Shown here piece after piece: positions 2 to 7,660 of a DNA stretch of 47,530 nt. Source of the stretch: an uncultured Colwellia sp. (GTDB taxonomy: Bacteria > Pseudomonadota > Gammaproteobacteria > Enterobacterales > Alteromonadaceae); NCBI GenBank assembly GCA_913061365.1, contig CAJXUT010000002.1, forward strand, positions 1-47,530, read 5' to 3'. The translations under genes and the position numbers were made by a program. Each line of letters opens with the position of its first letter. The first letter of the stretch is position 1. The notes beneath the pieces are model-generated. The model had not been told where the DNA came from. It saw only the letters and a list, made by a program, of their open reading frames with translations, and ran no database searches.

Positions 2-2836
2 AATAATATATTAAAAAATAATCATACTTCATCAATTTTAATTGATCAGAAAGGACGTGCTTGGATAGCCAAAAATACAGGAATTAATACCATTATGCCC
101 AATGGTGATTCAAGTATTCATTTTGATGTCGACTTTGCAATAAGTTCTCCTGAATTTAACCAAAATTCATCATTTAAATCTAACAAAGGAGAGTTGTTTT
201 TTGGTAGTCCAGATGGTTTCTATAGCTTATTTCCTGAAAGGTTACTTAATGTAACTCAGAGCATTTCTCAACCCATTTTTACAAACCTTTATGTTGCCAA
301 TAAAAAGATACCTACTAACCCAAATAACAACACCTCTTCAACGGCTAAAAACTATAGTTTATCCAAACAACTAAATTACCTTAAACAGGTTGAATTAGCT
401 TATAAGCAGTCACCTATTAGGTTTGAGTTTGTGTCGCCCAATACAAAGCTACCAACACAATTGCGATATAAATATCGCTTACTTGGTCTAGAAAAAGACT
501 GGATTGATGCGGCAACAGAAGTTGGCACTAATAATAACCGTGCAACATATACTAACCTCAGTCCTGGTGATTACGTTTTTGAAGTGCAAGCCTACGATGC
601 TCATCAACCTGACAATGCTAAAACCAGTCAACTTAACGTACGAATACTCCCCCCGTGGTGGCTATCAACGAGTATGCTTTTCGTATACTCATTAATATTG
701 TTACTAGTATTAATTTATATTCTTCAGCAATACAGAAACAAAAAAAAATACAATGCACAAATAAAAGAAAGTGAAGAACGTTTAAAGTTATCTTTATGGG
801 GTAGCGGTGATGAAATGTGGGATTGGAATATAACCACGGGTAAAATATATCGCTCAAACATATGGGGTATTTTAGAGTTTCCTCAAGATGGCACTCGAAA
901 TAGTAATTCAGATGGAAACAGTTTATCTAAAGAAGAAACGAACGTTCATCAACATGATATAGAACGAGTCAAAGAAACCCTTAATGACCACTTCATTAAT
1001 GAAACAGAACACTTTGAAGCCACTTACCGTGTAAAAGATAAAAACAATAATTGGGTATGGATTTTAGATCGTGGAAAAATTGTTGAACGAGATGAAAATA
1101 ATAATCCAACTCGTATGACCGGAACATTAAAAGATATAAGCCAAATAAAAAAAGCTGAAGAGCGTTTAAAGTTATTCGCACGATGTATTCAAAACATATC
1201 TGATGCTGTTGTTATTTATGATCGTCAATTTGTTGTTGTTGATGTTAATAAGGCTTTTCAGCGCATTACTGGCAAAAGTAAAACTCAAATGGTCGGTTGC
1301 TCATTAAGCTTTAATCAATACCCCATTAGCTTTTCACAAGATATTAAAAAGCATCTGCTTACGAAAGGTAGTTGGTATGGCGAGATAGAAAATTTACGAG
1401 TTGATGGCAGTAAGTATCTAACAGATTTAAATATTGATGTTATTCGTGATGAAGCAGGTGATATATCCCATTTTGTCGGTGTTTTCTCAGATATAACAAC
1501 ACGTAAAGAAACTGAGGCAGAGTTAATAAAACTAGCAAGTTCAGATACATTAACGGGCTTACCCAACCGTGCTTTTTTCCAAGCAAATCAAGCTCGATTA
1601 GTAAAGAAAAACATCAACCATGCTCTGCTCGTATTTGATTTAGATAACTTTAAGAAAATTAATGACTCTATGGGGCATCAAGTAGGTGACAACATACTAT
1701 GTCAAGTAGCTAAGCGCATGCTAAAACTGACCTCTAAAAAGGATACTGTTTATCGATTAGGTGGTGATGAGTTTAGTATCATTATAGAAGATACTAATGA
1801 TATTCATACGATAACTTCTCTTGCCAAAAAGATTTTGCGTACTATTGCCCAACCTTTTAAGCTTAAGAATCAGGAAATAGTTCTCTATAGCAGTATTGGT
1901 ATTGTACTTTTCCCCGAAGATGGGCTTACGGGTCATGAGTTACTAAAAAATGCCGACACAGCTATGTATCATGCAAAAGGCAGTGGCGGTAATAAATATC
2001 AATTTTTCAGTGACTCTATGAACAAAAAGGCAGTAAAACGCCTACAAGTTGAAAACTTAATTCGTCACGGTCTAAAAGAAGATTCTTTTTCAGTTTATTA
2101 TCAGCCTAAGATTGAAATATCTACAGGTAAAATTGCTGGTATGGAGGCATTAGTGCGCTTTGAAACACCAAATAAAGGTGTGATAAGCCCCATCGTATTT
2201 ATTCCTGTTTCAGAAGAAACAGGACAAATTATTGACATTGGAGAAATCGTTTTAAGAAAAGCATGTTATGCGACTAAAAAATGGGTTGATGCTGGATTAT
2301 TCGATGGCCGTGTTGCCGTTAATTTATCAGCGGTACAGTTTACTCAAGCTAACTTAGCAGCGCAGATAGCAAATATATTAAAAGATAGCCAGCTTCCTGC
2401 TAAACATCTTGAACTTGAGATAACTGAAGGCACCGTCATGGACTCACCTCAAGCAGCAATAGATACTATGTTGCAGATAAGAGCTATGGGAATACATTTA
2501 TCGCTCGACGATTTTGGTACTGGTTATTCTTCATTAGCTTATTTAAGAAAATTTCCACTGAACACGTTAAAAATAGACAAAGCTTTTGTTGATGATATAG
2601 AGCAGTCAGAACAAGGGAGAAATATGGTTGCAACAATAGTGACTATCGCTCATAACTTAGGGATGGATGTTGTTGCTGAAGGTGTAGAAACTAACCAACA
2701 GCTTAGTTTTCTTGCTGGTTTACAATGTGAACAACTGCAAGGCTACTTATATAGTAAACCCTTAGCGACTGATCACTTTCAAAACTATTTATTAGCTCAC
2801 CAAATTACTAATAAATCTACCTCATTTAATCGTTAA
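2..2836 (+). CDS. Propeller/Y_Y_Y-PAS-GGDEF-EAL c-di-GMP enzyme, 5' end outside the window
   Basis: The frame is open from base 2, ahead of the first ATG at 95, and these residues read as the end of a sensor beta-propeller repeat, so the gene starts before the window. Domains in order: a last propeller strand, a Y_Y_Y domain (about 420-640), one membrane helix (about 660-735), two PAS/PAC units (about 770-1510), GGDEF (about 1530-2010) and EAL (about 2050-2790). The cyclase motif GGDEF (1760-1774) is intact and the EAL signature (from 2144) reads MEALVRF with DDFGTGYSSL following, so both activities are possible. The inhibitory RxxD site five residues before GGDEF reads SKKD, so product inhibition is probably lost. 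The family senses a periplasmic ligand and makes or breaks cyclic di-GMP in the cytoplasm; the ligand cannot be told from sequence. Confidence 0.93.
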   Translation, partial: NNILKNNHTSSILIDQKGRAWIAKNTGINTIMPNGDSSIHFDVDFAISSPEFNQNSSFKSNKGELFFGSPDGFYSLFPERLLNVTQSISQPIFTNLYVANKKIPTNPNNNTSSTAKNYSLSKQLNYLKQVELAYKQSPIRFEFVSPNTKLPTQLRYKYRLLGLEKDWIDAATEVGTNNNRATYTNLSPGDYVFEVQAYDAHQPDNAKTSQLNVRILPPWWLSTSMLFVYSLILLLVLIYILQQYRNKKKYNAQIKESEERLKLSLWGSGDEMWDWNITTGKIYRSNIWGILEFPQDGTRNSNSDGNSLSKEETNVHQHDIERVKETLNDHFINETEHFEATYRVKDKNNNWVWILDRGKIVERDENNNPTRMTGTLKDISQIKKAEERLKLFARCIQNISDAVVIYDRQFVVVDVNKAFQRITGKSKTQMVGCSLSFNQYPISFSQDIKKHLLTKGSWYGEIENLRVDGSKYLTDLNIDVIRDEAGDISHFVGVFSDITTRKETEAELIKLASSDTLTGLPNRAFFQANQARLVKKNINHALLVFDLDNFKKINDSMGHQVGDNILCQVAKRMLKLTSKKDTVYRLGGDEFSIIIEDTNDIHTITSLAKKILRTIAQPFKLKNQEIVLYSSIGIVLFPEDGLTGHELLKNADTAMYHAKGSGGNKYQFFSDSMNKKAVKRLQVENLIRHGLKEDSFSVYYQPKIEISTGKIAGMEALVRFETPNKGVISPIVFIPVSEETGQIIDIGEIVLRKACYATKKWVDAGLFDGRVAVNLSAVQFTQANLAAQIANILKDSQLPAKHLELEITEGTVMDSPQAAIDTMLQIRAMGIHLSLDDFGTGYSSLAYLRKFPLNTLKIDKAFVDDIEQSEQGRNMVATIVTIAHNLGMDVVAEGVETNQQLSFLAGLQCEQLQGYLYSKPLATDHFQNYLLAHQITNKSTSFNR

Positions 2837-2979: not shown

Positions 2980-3024
2980 TTAATATTCCTGAAATTCAAA
3001 ATCAATAATTATGAGGAAAAGTAC

Positions 3025-3348
3025 ATGCTAAGTTCAATTATTCTATCTGTGGTTATGTCTGTATCTCCCGCTCCTGCAATTGATACTAATAATTTACAAG
3101 AGCAAGAAATTATCCAGCAAGATAGCTTACAACAAGTTAACAAAAGACGTGGAACTCTGCGAATTAACAAAAGACGTGGCACACTGCGCATCAATAAAAG
3201 ACGCGGTACTTTAAGAATCAATGCCCCTGCAGTTGATATTAATGCTTTGGAAGTTCAGGAACTTAGTCCACAAGACAGTCTAAACCAAATTAACAAAAGA
3301 CGTGGCACACTGCGCATCAATAAAAGACGCGGCACTTTACGTATATAA
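3025..3348 (+). CDS. Unrecognised exported-looking peptide with five NKRRGTLRI repeats
   Basis: I do not recognise this 107-residue protein. The start has a good ribosome site (GAGGAAAA, 3012-3019). Residues 1-18 look like a signal peptide: a short hydrophobic core, then a SPAPA end with an A-x-A cleavage pattern. The rest is two parallel modules. Module 1 is an acidic/Gln-rich stretch (19-38) followed by three copies of NKRRGTLRI (39-65). Module 2 is a related stretch (66-89, sharing PA-I/V-D, QE and QDSL-Q/N-Q) followed by two copies (90-107), and the protein ends on the last repeat. The acidic spacer plus basic repeat design recalls precursors of secreted peptides, but no modifying enzyme, protease or exporter is adjacent. 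A second small gene follows 29 bases downstream. Function unknown. Confidence 0.75.
   Translation: MLSSIILSVVMSVSPAPAIDTNNLQEQEIIQQDSLQQVNKRRGTLRINKRRGTLRINKRRGTLRINAPAVDINALEVQELSPQDSLNQINKRRGTLRINKRRGTLRI
3139..3345 (+). repeat. Coding 27-bp repeats in 3+2 arrangement
   Basis: Five in-frame 27-bp units lie at 3139-3165, 3166-3192, 3193-3219, 3292-3318 and 3319-3345. Units 2 and 4 are identical in DNA; units 3 and 5 are close to each other and differ from 1, 2 and 4 at synonymous sites. This pattern suggests that a spacer plus two repeats was duplicated as a block, with one further tandem copy. Every change keeps the peptide NKRRGTLRI, which points to selection on the peptide. Confidence 0.9.
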
Positions 3349-3377: not shown

Positions 3378-3488
3378 ATGATTAATTTATTAAAGACTTT
3401 ATTTAGAGTCTCTAGGGTAAAGAAAACAAACCCTATTGCTACTCGAATTGAGATTAAAGAGACTTCTGCTAACACTTGGTGGTCTTAG
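3378..3488 (+). CDS. Unrecognised 36-residue protein ending in TWWS
   Basis: This short ORF starts at an ATG six bases after AGAGG (3367-3371), a strong ribosome site, and ends TAG. The product is basic in its first half (LFRVSRVKKTNP) and ends SANTWWS. It has no clear signal peptide, although residues 1-12 could form an amphipathic helix. It lies 29 bases downstream of the repeat-peptide gene on the same strand, so the two are probably co-transcribed. I do not recognise the family. The two Trp codons near the stop could suggest a leader peptide, but the next gene downstream is on the other strand, which argues against that. Confidence 0.55.
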   Translation: MINLLKTLFRVSRVKKTNPIATRIEIKETSANTWWS

Positions 3489-3641: not shown

Positions 3642-3854
3642 CTAGGCAATAAATATCAACTGTTCTAAACCAAAAAGATGGTTTAGCTTCATTCTTTTCT
3701 TCATGGCAAACATAGGCCATATCAGCGGTCCAAACACAAGCCCAGCAAGAGTCCAGCGCTTACAGCCAAAACCTGTTATCAATGCTTGGCAATAAAAAAA
3801 CACTCCACAAACAGCACTGACACATACTACGAATAACACTAAAAGCAACAACAT
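3642..3854 (-). CDS. Small two-helix membrane protein, unknown function
   Basis: A 70-residue hydrophobic protein: an N-terminal helix (MLLLLVLFVVCVSAVCGVFF), a short linker with two Cys, then GCKRWTLAGLVFGPLIWPMF and a basic tail, as in many small conserved inner-membrane proteins of Alteromonadales. Two ATGs are adjacent, at 3857 and 3854. The upstream GGAA is only two bases from the first and five from the second, so I chose 3854. It is a lone gene converging on the peptide genes. Function not known. Confidence 0.65.
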   Translation of the reverse strand: MLLLLVLFVVCVSAVCGVFFYCQALITGFGCKRWTLAGLVFGPLIWPMFAMKKRMKLNHLFGLEQLIFIA

Positions 3855-3876
3855 CATATTTCCACACGAATAAATA

Positions 3877-4145: not shown

Positions 4146-6356
4146 TTAGTAATAACACTCCCCTTTTTCAGCCATTGAGATTAAAGCATTACAAGGTGTA
4201 TAGCGTTCTCCATGCTGCTGCGATAAATGCGTTAATTGCTCTACTAGTTTTGCAGCACCTATTTTATCAATGTAACGTAATGGACCACCTAAGAACGGAG
4301 GGAAACCAATACCAAAAATAGCGCCAATATCACCATCGCGTGCATTTCTTACAATTCCTTCATCAACACAACGCGCAGCTTCATTTAGCATCATATATAC
4401 ACAACGTTTTGCTATTTCATCAGCAGATAAATGTCCAACAGGATTCACATTGAGTAAAGAGTAAACACTTGCATCAACTTGCTTCCCTTTTTTCTTTAAT
4501 TGATTTAAAAAGCCTTTACTAGCTTCCTTGTTATATAAGTAAAAGCCTTTATTTGATTTCTTACCTAAACGACCATCAGCCAATAAGTTATCAAAAGCTG
4601 CAGGTGCGGCAAAACGCTCACCTAAATCAGCTTGTAATATTGGACCTATTTTCGCTCCTACATCAATGCCTACTTCATCTAGCAGTTGCATAGGGCCAAC
4701 AGGAAAACCAAAATTAACTAACGCTTTATCTAACTTATCAATAGGTTCTCCTGCAAGTAACAAAATCGCAGCTTCGTTCATATACGGAGCTAAAATACGG
4801 TTCACATAAAAACCAGCCTTGTCTTTAACAACAATAGGTGTTTTACCTTGTTTTTTAGCAAAGGCTACGGTTGTCGAAATAGTTTGATCTGAGGTTTTAT
4901 CATGGGGAATGATTTCTACCAATGGCATTTTATCTACAGGTGAAAAGTAATGTAGACCGATCACATTTTCTGGTCGCAACGCTTTTAAAGCAATTTTTCC
5001 AATAGGTAAACTTGAGGTGTTACTAGCAAAAACTGTTGTTAGTTTAGTCTGTTGCTCAACTTCTGCTACCATATTTTGTTTTAATTCTAAATTTTCAAAT
5101 ACTGCTTCTACCACAATATCAACATCTTTAAAGCCAGAGTAATCAACTGTGCCTGTGATCATAGACAACTGCTTCTGCATCTCACTATCGCGAATAAAGC
5201 GACGTTTGACTTTTTTAACTAATAAATCGTAACTATATTTTATCGCATGACTGATCCCCTGATGAGCAATATCTTTAATTCTTACTGGCATTTTTGCCTT
5301 TGTCGCAATAACAAAGGCAATTCCTCCTCCCATGAGACCACCACCGAGTACAGCCGTTTTAGTGATTTTAAGAGGTAATACATCTGCTATCCCCTGCTCT
5401 TTTTTCATTGCTGTAGTTGCAAAAAAAAGATTTCTTAACTGAGCAGAAACATTACTCATTGCAAGTTCTGAAAAATGTTTAGCTTCTATTGAATATCCTT
5501 TTGAAGACGATTGCTCCATACCTACTTTTACACACTCAATAATATTAATTGGTGCTGGATAGTTACCTTTTGTTTTTGCCAACACACCTTTTGTTGCTTG
5601 TTTATAAACAATATTTCGCCCTACTGATGTACCTTCTAGAAACTTATTTATTGCTGACGATTTAAATACTTTATTGTTTTTAAAACTTCCCGTTAATGCC
5701 ATTTTTTCAGCTGTTGCAATTAGAATACTATGAGGTACAACATCATTAACCAAGCCAACCTTTAGTGCTTGCTTTGCTCTAAGTTGTTTACCTGTCAACA
5801 TCATGTCTAGCGCTTTTTGTACGCCTACTAATTTAGGCAGCCGTTGTGTTCCACCACCACCAGGTAATAAACCTAATTGTACTTCAGGTAGACCTAATGC
5901 TGTTTTAGTACTGTCACTACAAATACGTGCATGACATGCCATAGCAAGCTCTAAACCTCCTCCCAAACAAGCTCCATGAATTGCGGCAACAACAGGTATA
6001 TTCAATTGTTCTATTTCAAATAGAATTTTTTGTCCTTGTTGAGAAAGTGCAGCAACCTCTTGAGCAGATTGGCAATCATCTATCATTTTAATATCAGCGC
6101 CAGCGATGAAAGAGTCTTCTTTACCACTGCATAAAACAATTCCGGTAATAGTAGGATCAGATCGTATTTCATCCAGAACATCAGCAGCTTGTTGAGTAAA
6201 CTCAGCTTTCAAAGTGTTCATAGTGTCATTCACAACATCCATCACCAAATGAGCGATGCCGTTGTCTTGTCGAACCAGGTTAAAAGCACTAGTGTCATTG
6301 TGTGCGCTACCTTTAGCAGCCTGTACACTAGATACTTCTTTATTATCAACACTCAT
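4146..6356 (-). CDS. fadJ: Fatty acid oxidation complex alpha subunit FadJ (enoyl-CoA hydratase / 3-hydroxyacyl-CoA dehydrogenase)
   Basis: The bifunctional beta-oxidation enzyme hydrates enoyl-CoA and oxidises 3-hydroxyacyl-CoA with NAD. The N-terminal crotonase domain shows FIAGADIKM, the oxyanion/GGGLEL region (Glu kept) and [16 protein letters not shown]. After a linker comes the Rossmann motif [10 protein letters not shown] (about residue 335), then [14 protein letters not shown] and the C-terminal dehydrogenase helical repeats. I took the ATG at 6356, which overlaps the fadI stop as TAATG, giving 736 residues (E. coli FadJ 714). The frame stays open 16 codons further into fadI, but that extension (MCCRWFRR...) is not family-like. 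Translation is probably coupled to fadI. FadJ rather than FadB is chosen because the thiolase partner is upstream and FadI-like. Confidence 0.93.
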
Positions 6357-7660
6357 TAGTCTGTCTCCACTATCATTGCCGCGCCTAAACCACCTGCAGC
6401 ACAAGCTGTAGCTAATCCAATTCCTCCTCCGCGACGATTCAACTCATTTAAAGTTTGTGTAATTAAACGAGCGCCCGTAGCCGCAAAAGGATGTCCATAA
6501 GCAAGAGAGCCTCCCATTACGTTAAATTTAGTCATATCTATTTCACCTATGGCTTTATCACGCCCTAAATATTCTCTAGCAAACTTATCACTGGCAAACA
6601 TTTTCATATTAGCTAATGCTTGCGCAGCAAAAGCTTCATGCATTTCAATAAGATCTAAGTCTGCTAATTCTAACCCTGCTCGCTTTAAAGCAATTGGCGT
6701 AGCAAAGCTCGGTCCCATCAACATATCTTGCCAGACATCAATTGCAGCAAAGCCATAACTGCGTATATACCCTAGAGGCTGATAACCAAGCTCTTTTGCC
6801 CGGCCTTCACGCATTAATAAGATTGCAGCTCCACCGTCAGTTAATGGTGTACTAGTTGCTGGGGTAACAGTGCCATGTTTCCGATCAAAACAAGGACGAA
6901 GTTTTCCATAGTCTGCTAACGTAGAGTTTTTACGAATACAATTATCTTCTTCTATGAAGTTTTTATATGGCTCACTATGAGTGCTCATCACTTCACCAGC
7001 AAGATTACCATCTGCCCAGTTTTGGGCTGCTAATGTATGAGATCTATGTGCTAATGAGTCTTGCTCTTCTCGAGAAATATTATAAGTTTTAGCCATTTGT
7101 TCAGCCGTTTGCCCCATCGTAATTCCTGTAGAATACTCAGCTACAGCAGGCGCAACAGGAAGTATATCTTTGAAACTTAACTTTCTAATTAAGGCAATTT
7201 TTTGACCTACTGTTTTAGTTTTACTCAAGTCTAATAGCGTACGTGCAAACTTTTTAGAAACACCAATAGGCGCAACCGAAGATGAATCTGCCCCTCCAGC
7301 AATACCAACATCAACAAAACCTGCCATAATTGATTCAGCAATATTGACCGTAGACTGAAAGCTTGTCGCACAAGCACGAGAAACACTATAAGCGTCGGTA
7401 TGGGTATTCATGCCCGTTCCTAAGACTATTTCCCTCGCAATATTTGGTGCCTCAGGCATTTGTATCACCTGACCAAAAACACATTGATCAATAATCGCTG
7501 GATCAACATCATGCTTTTGCAGTAATTCATTTACCACTAATTTACCTAGGTCAACCGCAGGTACACCATGAAAAGCCGTTGCTTGTTTTGCAAATGGGGT
7601 TCTCAGACCGGCAACAACAGCAATTCGCTCACCCGTAGATGTGGTCATTTTTATAGACAT
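6356..7660 (-). CDS. fadI: Acetyl-CoA C-acyltransferase FadI (3-ketoacyl-CoA thiolase)
   Basis: This thiolase cleaves 3-ketoacyl-CoA in the last step of beta-oxidation, in complex with FadJ. At 434 residues it is the size of E. coli FadI (436). The nucleophilic Cys is C97 in [10 protein letters not shown]; the catalytic HEAFAAQ and [16 protein letters not shown] blocks and the C-terminal ACAAGGLG (second Cys) are present. The start at 7660 follows GGAG by ten bases. It is the first gene of the fadIJ pair. The upstream region carries a FadR-like palindrome over the -35 region and a second imperfect copy nearer the start, so repression lifted by long-chain acyl-CoA is expected. Confidence 0.94.

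Follow-up and report, generated by a model that had tools for sequence, protein, structure and literature searches.

The window, meaning the whole analysed stretch of 47,530 nucleotides from an uncultured Colwellia sp., begins within a sensor gene. This is followed by a short gene encoding five copies of the nonapeptide NKRRGTLRI, by a partner peptide gene and, on the opposite strand, by a gene for a 71-aa protein and by fadJ. The features are:

2-2836, plus strand: C-terminal 944 codons of the sensor (Pfam, full-length relative, synteny)
3014-3019, plus strand: AGGAAA, putative ribosome-binding site 5 nt 5′ of the precursor ATG (read directly)
3025-3348, plus strand: precursor gene, 107 aa, five NKRRGTLRI cores (ORF reading, homologues)
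3025-3078, plus strand: leader MLSSIILSVVMSVSPAPA of the precursor (similar leaders in homologues)
3079-3138, plus strand: precursor spacer 1, 20 aa
3139-3165, plus strand: core copy 1, NKRRGTLRI
3166-3192, plus strand: core copy 2, NKRRGTLRI
3193-3219, plus strand: core copy 3, NKRRGTLRI
3220-3291, plus strand: precursor spacer 2, 24 aa, related to spacer 1
3292-3318, plus strand: core copy 4, NKRRGTLRI
3319-3345, plus strand: core copy 5, NKRRGTLRI, stop codon directly after
3378-3488, plus strand: partner peptide gene, 36 aa, MINLLKTLF...IEIKETSANTWWS, ending in NTWWS (homologues, position 3′ of the precursor, alignment)
3642-3857, minus strand: gene for a 71-aa protein containing two hydrophobic segments (..KRWTLAGLVFGPLIWPMF..), located between the partner gene and fadJ
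4146-6404, minus strand: fadJ, a syntenic landmark outside the system (synteny)

The precursor ORF starts with ATG and comprises 107 codons. A first-pass annotation had described five exact nonamer copies in two modules and a protein ending on a repeat. Reading of the ORF and of the direct repeats confirmed this, as the spacer-plus-repeat modules form a 122-nt direct repeat (3070-3191 versus 3223-3344) with 75% identity. The five copies encode the same peptide with codons varying at silent positions only, and copies 2 and 4 do not differ even in their DNA. The leader MLSSIILSVVMSVSPAPA is likely an export signal, which might be cleaved by signal peptidase after APA; it is hydrophobic, but without any basic residue. 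Promoter-like sites occurred at about shuffle level (7 versus a shuffle mean of 5.7, sd 2.2), and three terminator-like sites were found versus 0.8 in shuffles (sd 1.0). Against Pfam and NCBIfam the precursor gave sub-threshold matches only, none above a curated cut-off, in agreement with the earlier statement that no such described family was known. The weak Pfam match to DUF6470 reached 14.5 bits, and 24.2 bits in a relative, against a gathering cut-off of 28.9, and the protein is not assigned to this family.

The precursor was searched for in 61 genomes, of which 27 gave matches at E≤1, many of the weaker ones being judged unrelated on reading. Good matches had leader, spacer and repeats in common and differed in the repeat unit, for example six copies of GHRRGDVRI, six of GDKRGSIRI, or five of SHRRGTLRI with SDNGSSSPT spacers. 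Because the repeats change, the precursor as query reaches close relatives only, and partner and sensor are better handles. Relatives with the system span the family and three other families of the order. By sequence comparison, a chance origin of the repeat ORF is excluded by these homologues, since the same architecture with other repeat units is found at the same place in many genomes. Variable repeat number, a kept spacer and conserved neighbours, which the first-pass annotation had proposed to look for, were all found in relatives. Homologues conserved in the sense strand were present, and frameshifts inside the repeats, named there as evidence against the gene, were seen in none of the genes read. 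In the precursor of genome G009 (locus L067) the reading frame shifts after the leader and before the repeats, all five of which remain in one frame; fadJ of the same genome carries two in-frame stops, pointing to an assembly error or a decaying locus.

Cores were set by hand in 86 precursor genes and 77 of them were distinct, while copies within one gene stay alike; none was set for G076 and G384, and the core of G159 includes a first residue not in the text. An automatic 8-residue core, which gave 79 distinct sequences over 88 genes with L027 and L031 added by hand, was dropped as a measure of diversity, because it had one masked row, straddled core and spacer in a few genes and tolerated only one mismatch. 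Copy number ranged from 1 to 14, with two or more copies in 72 of 88 genes and single-copy precursors in several genera. The proteins end in [RK][ILVMF] in 74 of 88 cases, the 14 that do not end on the core pattern including some that are cut or masked. The mean charge of the cores is +2.6, and no shared cleavage motif was evident at internal core copies. Between copies, pS was 0.35 and pN 0.018 over the 88 precursor genes, values that are biased low by the automatic cores. In the 41 genes with comparable spacers, for which core copies with up to three mismatches were accepted, pS was 0.39 and pN 0.024 in the cores, and pN/pS was 0.061 in cores versus 0.252 in spacers, which bears out the earlier claim that the peptide is held while the DNA drifts. 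The first-pass idea of a precursor of several identical cationic peptides appears largely right from these sequences: homologues retain leader, spacer and repeats in 1 to 14 copies, and the copies are conserved as peptide. It had overlooked the upstream sensor and the downstream partner.

Named carriers read from 42 partner loci include the following:

Colwellia polaris: core GTKRGTVRI
Cognaticolwellia aestuarii: core GTKRTQVRI
C. mytili (Cognaticolwellia): core GTRRGQVRI
C. sediminilitoris: core GTRKDQVRI
Colwellia chukchiensis: core GTKRNQVRI
C. hornerae (Colwellia): core GKSHGKVRI
Pseudocolwellia agarivorans: core ARRNVRM
Thalassotalea marina: core GKNRGEGIRV
Thalassomonas sp. RHCl1: core TGRRSVRI, single copy

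In three of the 42 loci the precursor was not read (L239 and L240, cut by contig ends, and L246, Colwellia maritima MSW7). A typical Colwellia-type locus was also seen on a contig labelled uncultured Oligoflexia bacterium (L249), probably a binning error or a transfer.

The partner ORF, encoding MINLLKTLFRVSRVKKTNPIATRIEIKETSANTWWS, begins after a 29-nt gap from the precursor stop. Among 395 genomes of the family, partner matches were found in 94 at E≤0.1 and in 82 at E≤1e-3. The C-terminal WW is conserved in most lineages; among 20 loci from other genera (L089-L108), three partners lack the WW end. The window partner had no match in NCBIfam, and two relatives' partners had none in Pfam. The presence of the partner follows the charge of the precursor leader: with no K or R in the first nine residues, a partner lies downstream in 83 of 85 precursors, and with K or R there in 0 of 23, counts that include 20 hand-added precursors and ignore relatedness, both states occurring in more than one family. 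The two exceptions are G313 and G065, the latter at a contig end with its partner match on another contig. The partner may thus help an uncharged leader to be exported or processed. In L089, L090 and L091 (genus g82), two different WW-ending partners lie in tandem 3′ of the precursor.

Family loci with the system mostly contain the 71-aa gene, L059, L094 and L105 being exceptions, and 10 system-less loci of the genus lack it. L051 has retained it without sensor and peptide genes, and it is also present in L206 and L208, where no precursor was seen. Its product is possibly an accessory of the system.

The order sensor, precursor, partner, convergent fadJ, fadI, moxR and a DUF58-type gene recurs in L089-L108 where the contig allows, with moxR farther off in L107. 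Upstream of the sensor, a large ORF on the same strand lies at a distance of 65-320 nt in all 22 loci with DNA there. Pfam identified it as an M16 (insulinase-type) peptidase in the three that were run; no signal peptide was obvious on reading, and there was a sub-threshold match to PqqF. M16 genes were located as follows:

L052:6684-9530, minus strand: M16 gene before the sensor
L129:9938-12763, minus strand: M16 gene before the sensor
G000:C226:35-2830: M16 gene of the window genome, at the edge of another contig

The position of the last gene is consistent with an assembly break inside the sensor. The first-pass annotation had stated that no processing gene is adjacent, and this stands in part: where relatives show the complete locus, an M16 peptidase gene precedes the sensor, yet that gene also occurs in system-less relatives. 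As a dedicated processor M16 was set aside, being present in 38 of 39 genomes of the genus whether or not they carry the system. The conserved neighbourhood yielded no dedicated protease or exporter for the peptide, and no RiPP-modifying enzyme was recognised among the ORFs from sensor to fadJ or in the gene before the sensor; genes farther from the locus were compared with window genes only.

Downstream of fadJ, 20 loci of the window's genus (L061 being short) fell into seven with sensor and partner, two with the peptide genes and the sensor elsewhere, and 11 with neither. In the 10 system-less genomes of the genus that were computed, M16 lies 39-205 nt from fadJ, and these empty sites lack sensor, precursor, partner and 71-aa gene. 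The eleventh system-less locus, L051 (G018), retains the 71-aa gene and gave no M16 match. In 18 sensor-less genomes of the genus there was no convincing partner match either.

Sensor and partner were counted in the same 395 family genomes (partner E≤1e-3, sensor E≤1e-60): both were found in 79, the partner only in three, the sensor only in 16 and neither in 297 (Fisher p = 1e-62, which ignores relatedness). The three partner-only loci lie at a contig edge on the sensor side: the window's own genome, G133 (L094) and G315 (base 160 of the contig). Among the 16 sensor-only genomes, ten carry a short precursor with a single core behind the sensor, for example ..IWKPGSVRI or ..ARKPGKIRI, and no partner was seen there. 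An array with a diverged partner is present in G167 and G231, the short ORF of G384 lacks a basic tail, in G155 the contig ends there, and G124 and G182 make up the remaining two. G011 and G015 keep both sensor and peptide genes although these are not linked (in G011 they lie on one contig at a distance of 1.1 Mb), and the M16 gene remains with the sensor. Behind the sensor of G011 there is, by reading, a transposase-like ORF.

Over 394 genomes of the order, the sensor profile gave 37 matches at E≤1e-90, of which 20 were new and examined downstream, seven had already been seen and 10 were left out. A candidate precursor was found behind 17 of these 20 sensors, and none was seen behind the sensors of G064, G163 and G452. 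The family f16 precursor consists of MKTLLLASALGLTLLATSATA, by reading a standard-looking signal peptide, and three VWRKIDI units. Family f20 has RIPVRFE, RVIIRY, HIPIRFE or RIQIRI arrays with a WWA or WWG partner, and in family f7 the arrays consist of units of the ARGTKVDPQSQL or AREGAIDPVNS type, or there are two SIARVRSVDPS units. The basic-hydrophobic end is missing from the f7 precursors and from some of those in g34, g54 and g55. An M16 gene lies before the sensor in all 13 f1 and f20 loci tested and in none of the seven f7 and f16 loci, and by reading, fadJ is not among the genes seen downstream of f16 and f7 sensors. Sensor and precursor therefore stay together outside the shared synteny. 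A class-wide sensor search (274 genomes, E≤1e-80) gave one match, which was already known. In f7, a 523-codon open frame at L200:1240-2809 lies behind a propeller sensor and carries an AREGAIDPVNS-type array (first 250 residues seen); its reverse strand is also open over long stretches.

The frame of the window sensor is open from the contig start and its N-terminal part is cut off by the contig edge. What is left comprises the end of the periplasmic domain, Y_Y_Y, PAS, PAS, GGDEF and EAL, and bases 5-565 gave a match in the sensor comparison. The remainder was not found elsewhere in the assembly at E≤1e-20. The full-length relative L103 has six Reg_prop repeats, Y_Y_Y, two PAS regions, GGDEF and EAL in Pfam, which places it among the Reg_prop/Y_Y_Y sensors, of which the truncated window copy shows only Y_Y_Y. 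GGDEF and EAL both score above the Pfam cut-off, as in c-di-GMP enzymes. The propeller domain, predicted to be periplasmic, is acidic (-2.0 per 100 aa). Compared with the PDB, the periplasmic profile matched 4a2l/4a2m (E 8e-146), 3v9f (E 3e-113) and 3ott (E 1e-68), which are sugar- or glycan-sensing domains; this likeness would also fit a sugar ligand.

Among 79 full sensors the periplasmic part is far more variable than the cytoplasmic part (mean distance 0.63 versus 0.27). Periplasmic distance correlated with peptide distance when GGDEF-EAL distance was given (partial Mantel, r=0.327, p=0.0005), whereas the PAS control did not (r=0.014, p=0.38). Pooled within genera, the values were r=0.228, p=0.0015 for the periplasmic domain and r=0.006, p=0.46 for the PAS control. 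By genus, p was 0.009 in g1, 0.044 in g82, 0.016 in g61, 0.032 in g56 and 0.061 in g32, the largest genus (r=0.15, p=0.06 alone). With PAS also corrected for, p=0.0005 was kept over all sensors; g1 (0.0015) and g61 (about 0.01) kept significance, g82 (0.13) and g56 (0.075) lost it and g32 (about 0.07) was not significant. Partial Mantel tests are known to be lenient with related sequences.

Pairs of sensors were also compared directly. In three of 11 pairs plotted (L141/L143, L134/L147 and L145/L146), the cytoplasmic parts are 92-100% identical and the mid-periplasmic half 25-67%, which suggests exchange or very fast change of sensing domains. In L138/L144 and L142/L146, the periplasmic halves are similar throughout though the cores differ a little. 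When 11 identical-core species pairs were set against pairs of equal cytoplasmic divergence, five ranked at or below 5.3% (one of them against a single comparison pair) and two at 8.3%, while the other four (22-53%) show nothing, so that these matched pairs agree with co-variation in part. Two sister genera have one core in common and receptors that differ as much as mismatched pairs. Two properties of a peptide pheromone are thus found: the core is selected as a peptide, nearly uniform inside one genome while differing from species to species, and its candidate receptor is co-inherited and co-diverges with it, weakly inside g32 alone (p=0.06).

From these sequences, the gene at 3025-3348 probably encodes an exported multi-copy precursor of a species-specific, pheromone-like peptide ligand for a c-di-GMP receptor. 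The precursor would cross the inner membrane by its N-terminal leader, assisted by the 36-aa partner in lineages whose leader lacks basic residues, and general proteases would cut it into short peptides of about one repeat. Such a peptide, short, species-specific, mostly cationic and usually ending in a basic and then a hydrophobic residue, might bind to the neighbouring PAS-PAS-GGDEF-EAL protein at its periplasmic propeller domain, which is acidic and hypervariable, and thereby alter the c-di-GMP-making or -degrading output of that protein. Since almost every species combines a peptide of its own with a receptor domain that co-varies, the most likely role would be recognition of self or density sensing among kin. 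We give about even chances to a wider proposal, a peptide language of Gram-negative marine bacteria in which exported multi-copy precursors release species-specific cationic peptides for hypervariable propeller receptors that set c-di-GMP, peptide and receptor diverging together and perhaps being exchanged by recombination, like Gram-positive pherotypes.

The circuit could instead be intracellular, the precursor being exported and its peptide or the uncut repeat protein reporting to the sensor of the same cell only, for example on the state of the periplasm or of a protease; the repeats would then serve dose or multivalency and carry no message between cells. Such a circuit would suit the finding of no outward exporter next to the genes, the predicted periplasmic location of the sensor domain and the single-copy precursors of several genera. 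It is nevertheless considered unlikely, as on its own it leaves the species-by-species change of the core together with the receptor unexplained. The same co-variation bears on the proposal that species variation is neutral, with slippage homogenising the repeats under a loose need for a basic tail and residual phylogeny producing the covariation with the sensor. Slippage does occur in tandem arrays, some copies share the same DNA sequence and Mantel tests can be lenient, but the copies differ at silent sites (pS 0.39) with the peptide held (pN 0.024), and the PAS control is without residual signal; neutral variation is therefore regarded as improbable.

Two other readings start from the peptide itself, and both appear very improbable. 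A cationic antimicrobial or kin-competition peptide, with the sensor answering envelope damage, would agree with short cationic cores and with their diversification between species. Its fixed place beside one sensor in most carriers and its co-variation with the periplasmic domain of that sensor argue against it, as does the lack of a recognised immunity or export gene between sensor and fadJ. The precursor could also be that of a multi-core RiPP, with the partner as second precursor or recognition peptide. Here the leader, spacer and repeated cores, the conserved C-terminal WW of the partner in most lineages and the M16 peptidase beside the sensor would fit, M16 peptidases also serving PQQ biosynthesis; against it, no modifying enzyme was recognised in the conserved gene order, and the cores read contain no Cys and no fixed modifiable motif.

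The pheromone-like reading would bear on a key messenger, as c-di-GMP decides between swimming and biofilm life. For most c-di-GMP membrane sensors the signals are not known. About a hundred of the examined genomes carry the sensor beside genes that appear to spell its ligand, so that both ligand and receptor could be deduced from the sequence and put to a direct test with short synthetic peptides. If this holds, it would be Gram-negative peptide signalling from parts unrelated to known systems, with natural variation for studying the evolution of ligand-receptor specificity. Titles and abstract starts of open-licence papers yielded no description of the precursor family or of such a system.

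Among known systems, fungal multi-copy pheromone precursors of the yeast alpha-factor type have a signal-type leader, spacers, several identical short peptides and a dedicated membrane receptor, and the peptide sequence is fixed within a species and different between species. The system described here has in common with them the leader-spacer-multicopy layout, the species-specific sequence and, as a candidate, the membrane receptor; no sequence relation is shown, no processing site is known here, and the fungal receptor is a GPCR whereas the one here is a propeller-GGDEF-EAL protein. Agr, Com and RRNPP are peptide quorum sensing systems of Gram-positive bacteria. The likeness to them lies in a species-specific peptide encoded beside a receptor with a hypervariable sensing part and a conserved output part. 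In contrast to them, the system here is Gram-negative with a multi-copy precursor and a predicted c-di-GMP output; no agrB/ComQ-like or ABC exporter gene was recognised nearby, no histidine kinase or RRNPP receptor is present, and with a GGDEF-EAL candidate receptor and fadJ, fadI, moxR and a general M16 peptidase as neighbours it is not placed among them. The Reg_prop/Y_Y_Y sensors of hybrid two-component systems (4a2l, 3v9f, 3ott) have the periplasmic profile in common, but their output is a histidine kinase and their ligand a glycan, whereas here the output is PAS-PAS-GGDEF-EAL and the proposed ligand a peptide. Multi-core RiPP precursors resemble the one here in layout and differ in that a modifying enzyme was not recognised in the conserved neighbourhood here. 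Taken from its sequence, the system would work like a peptide pheromone system, but it is placed in none of the known ones.
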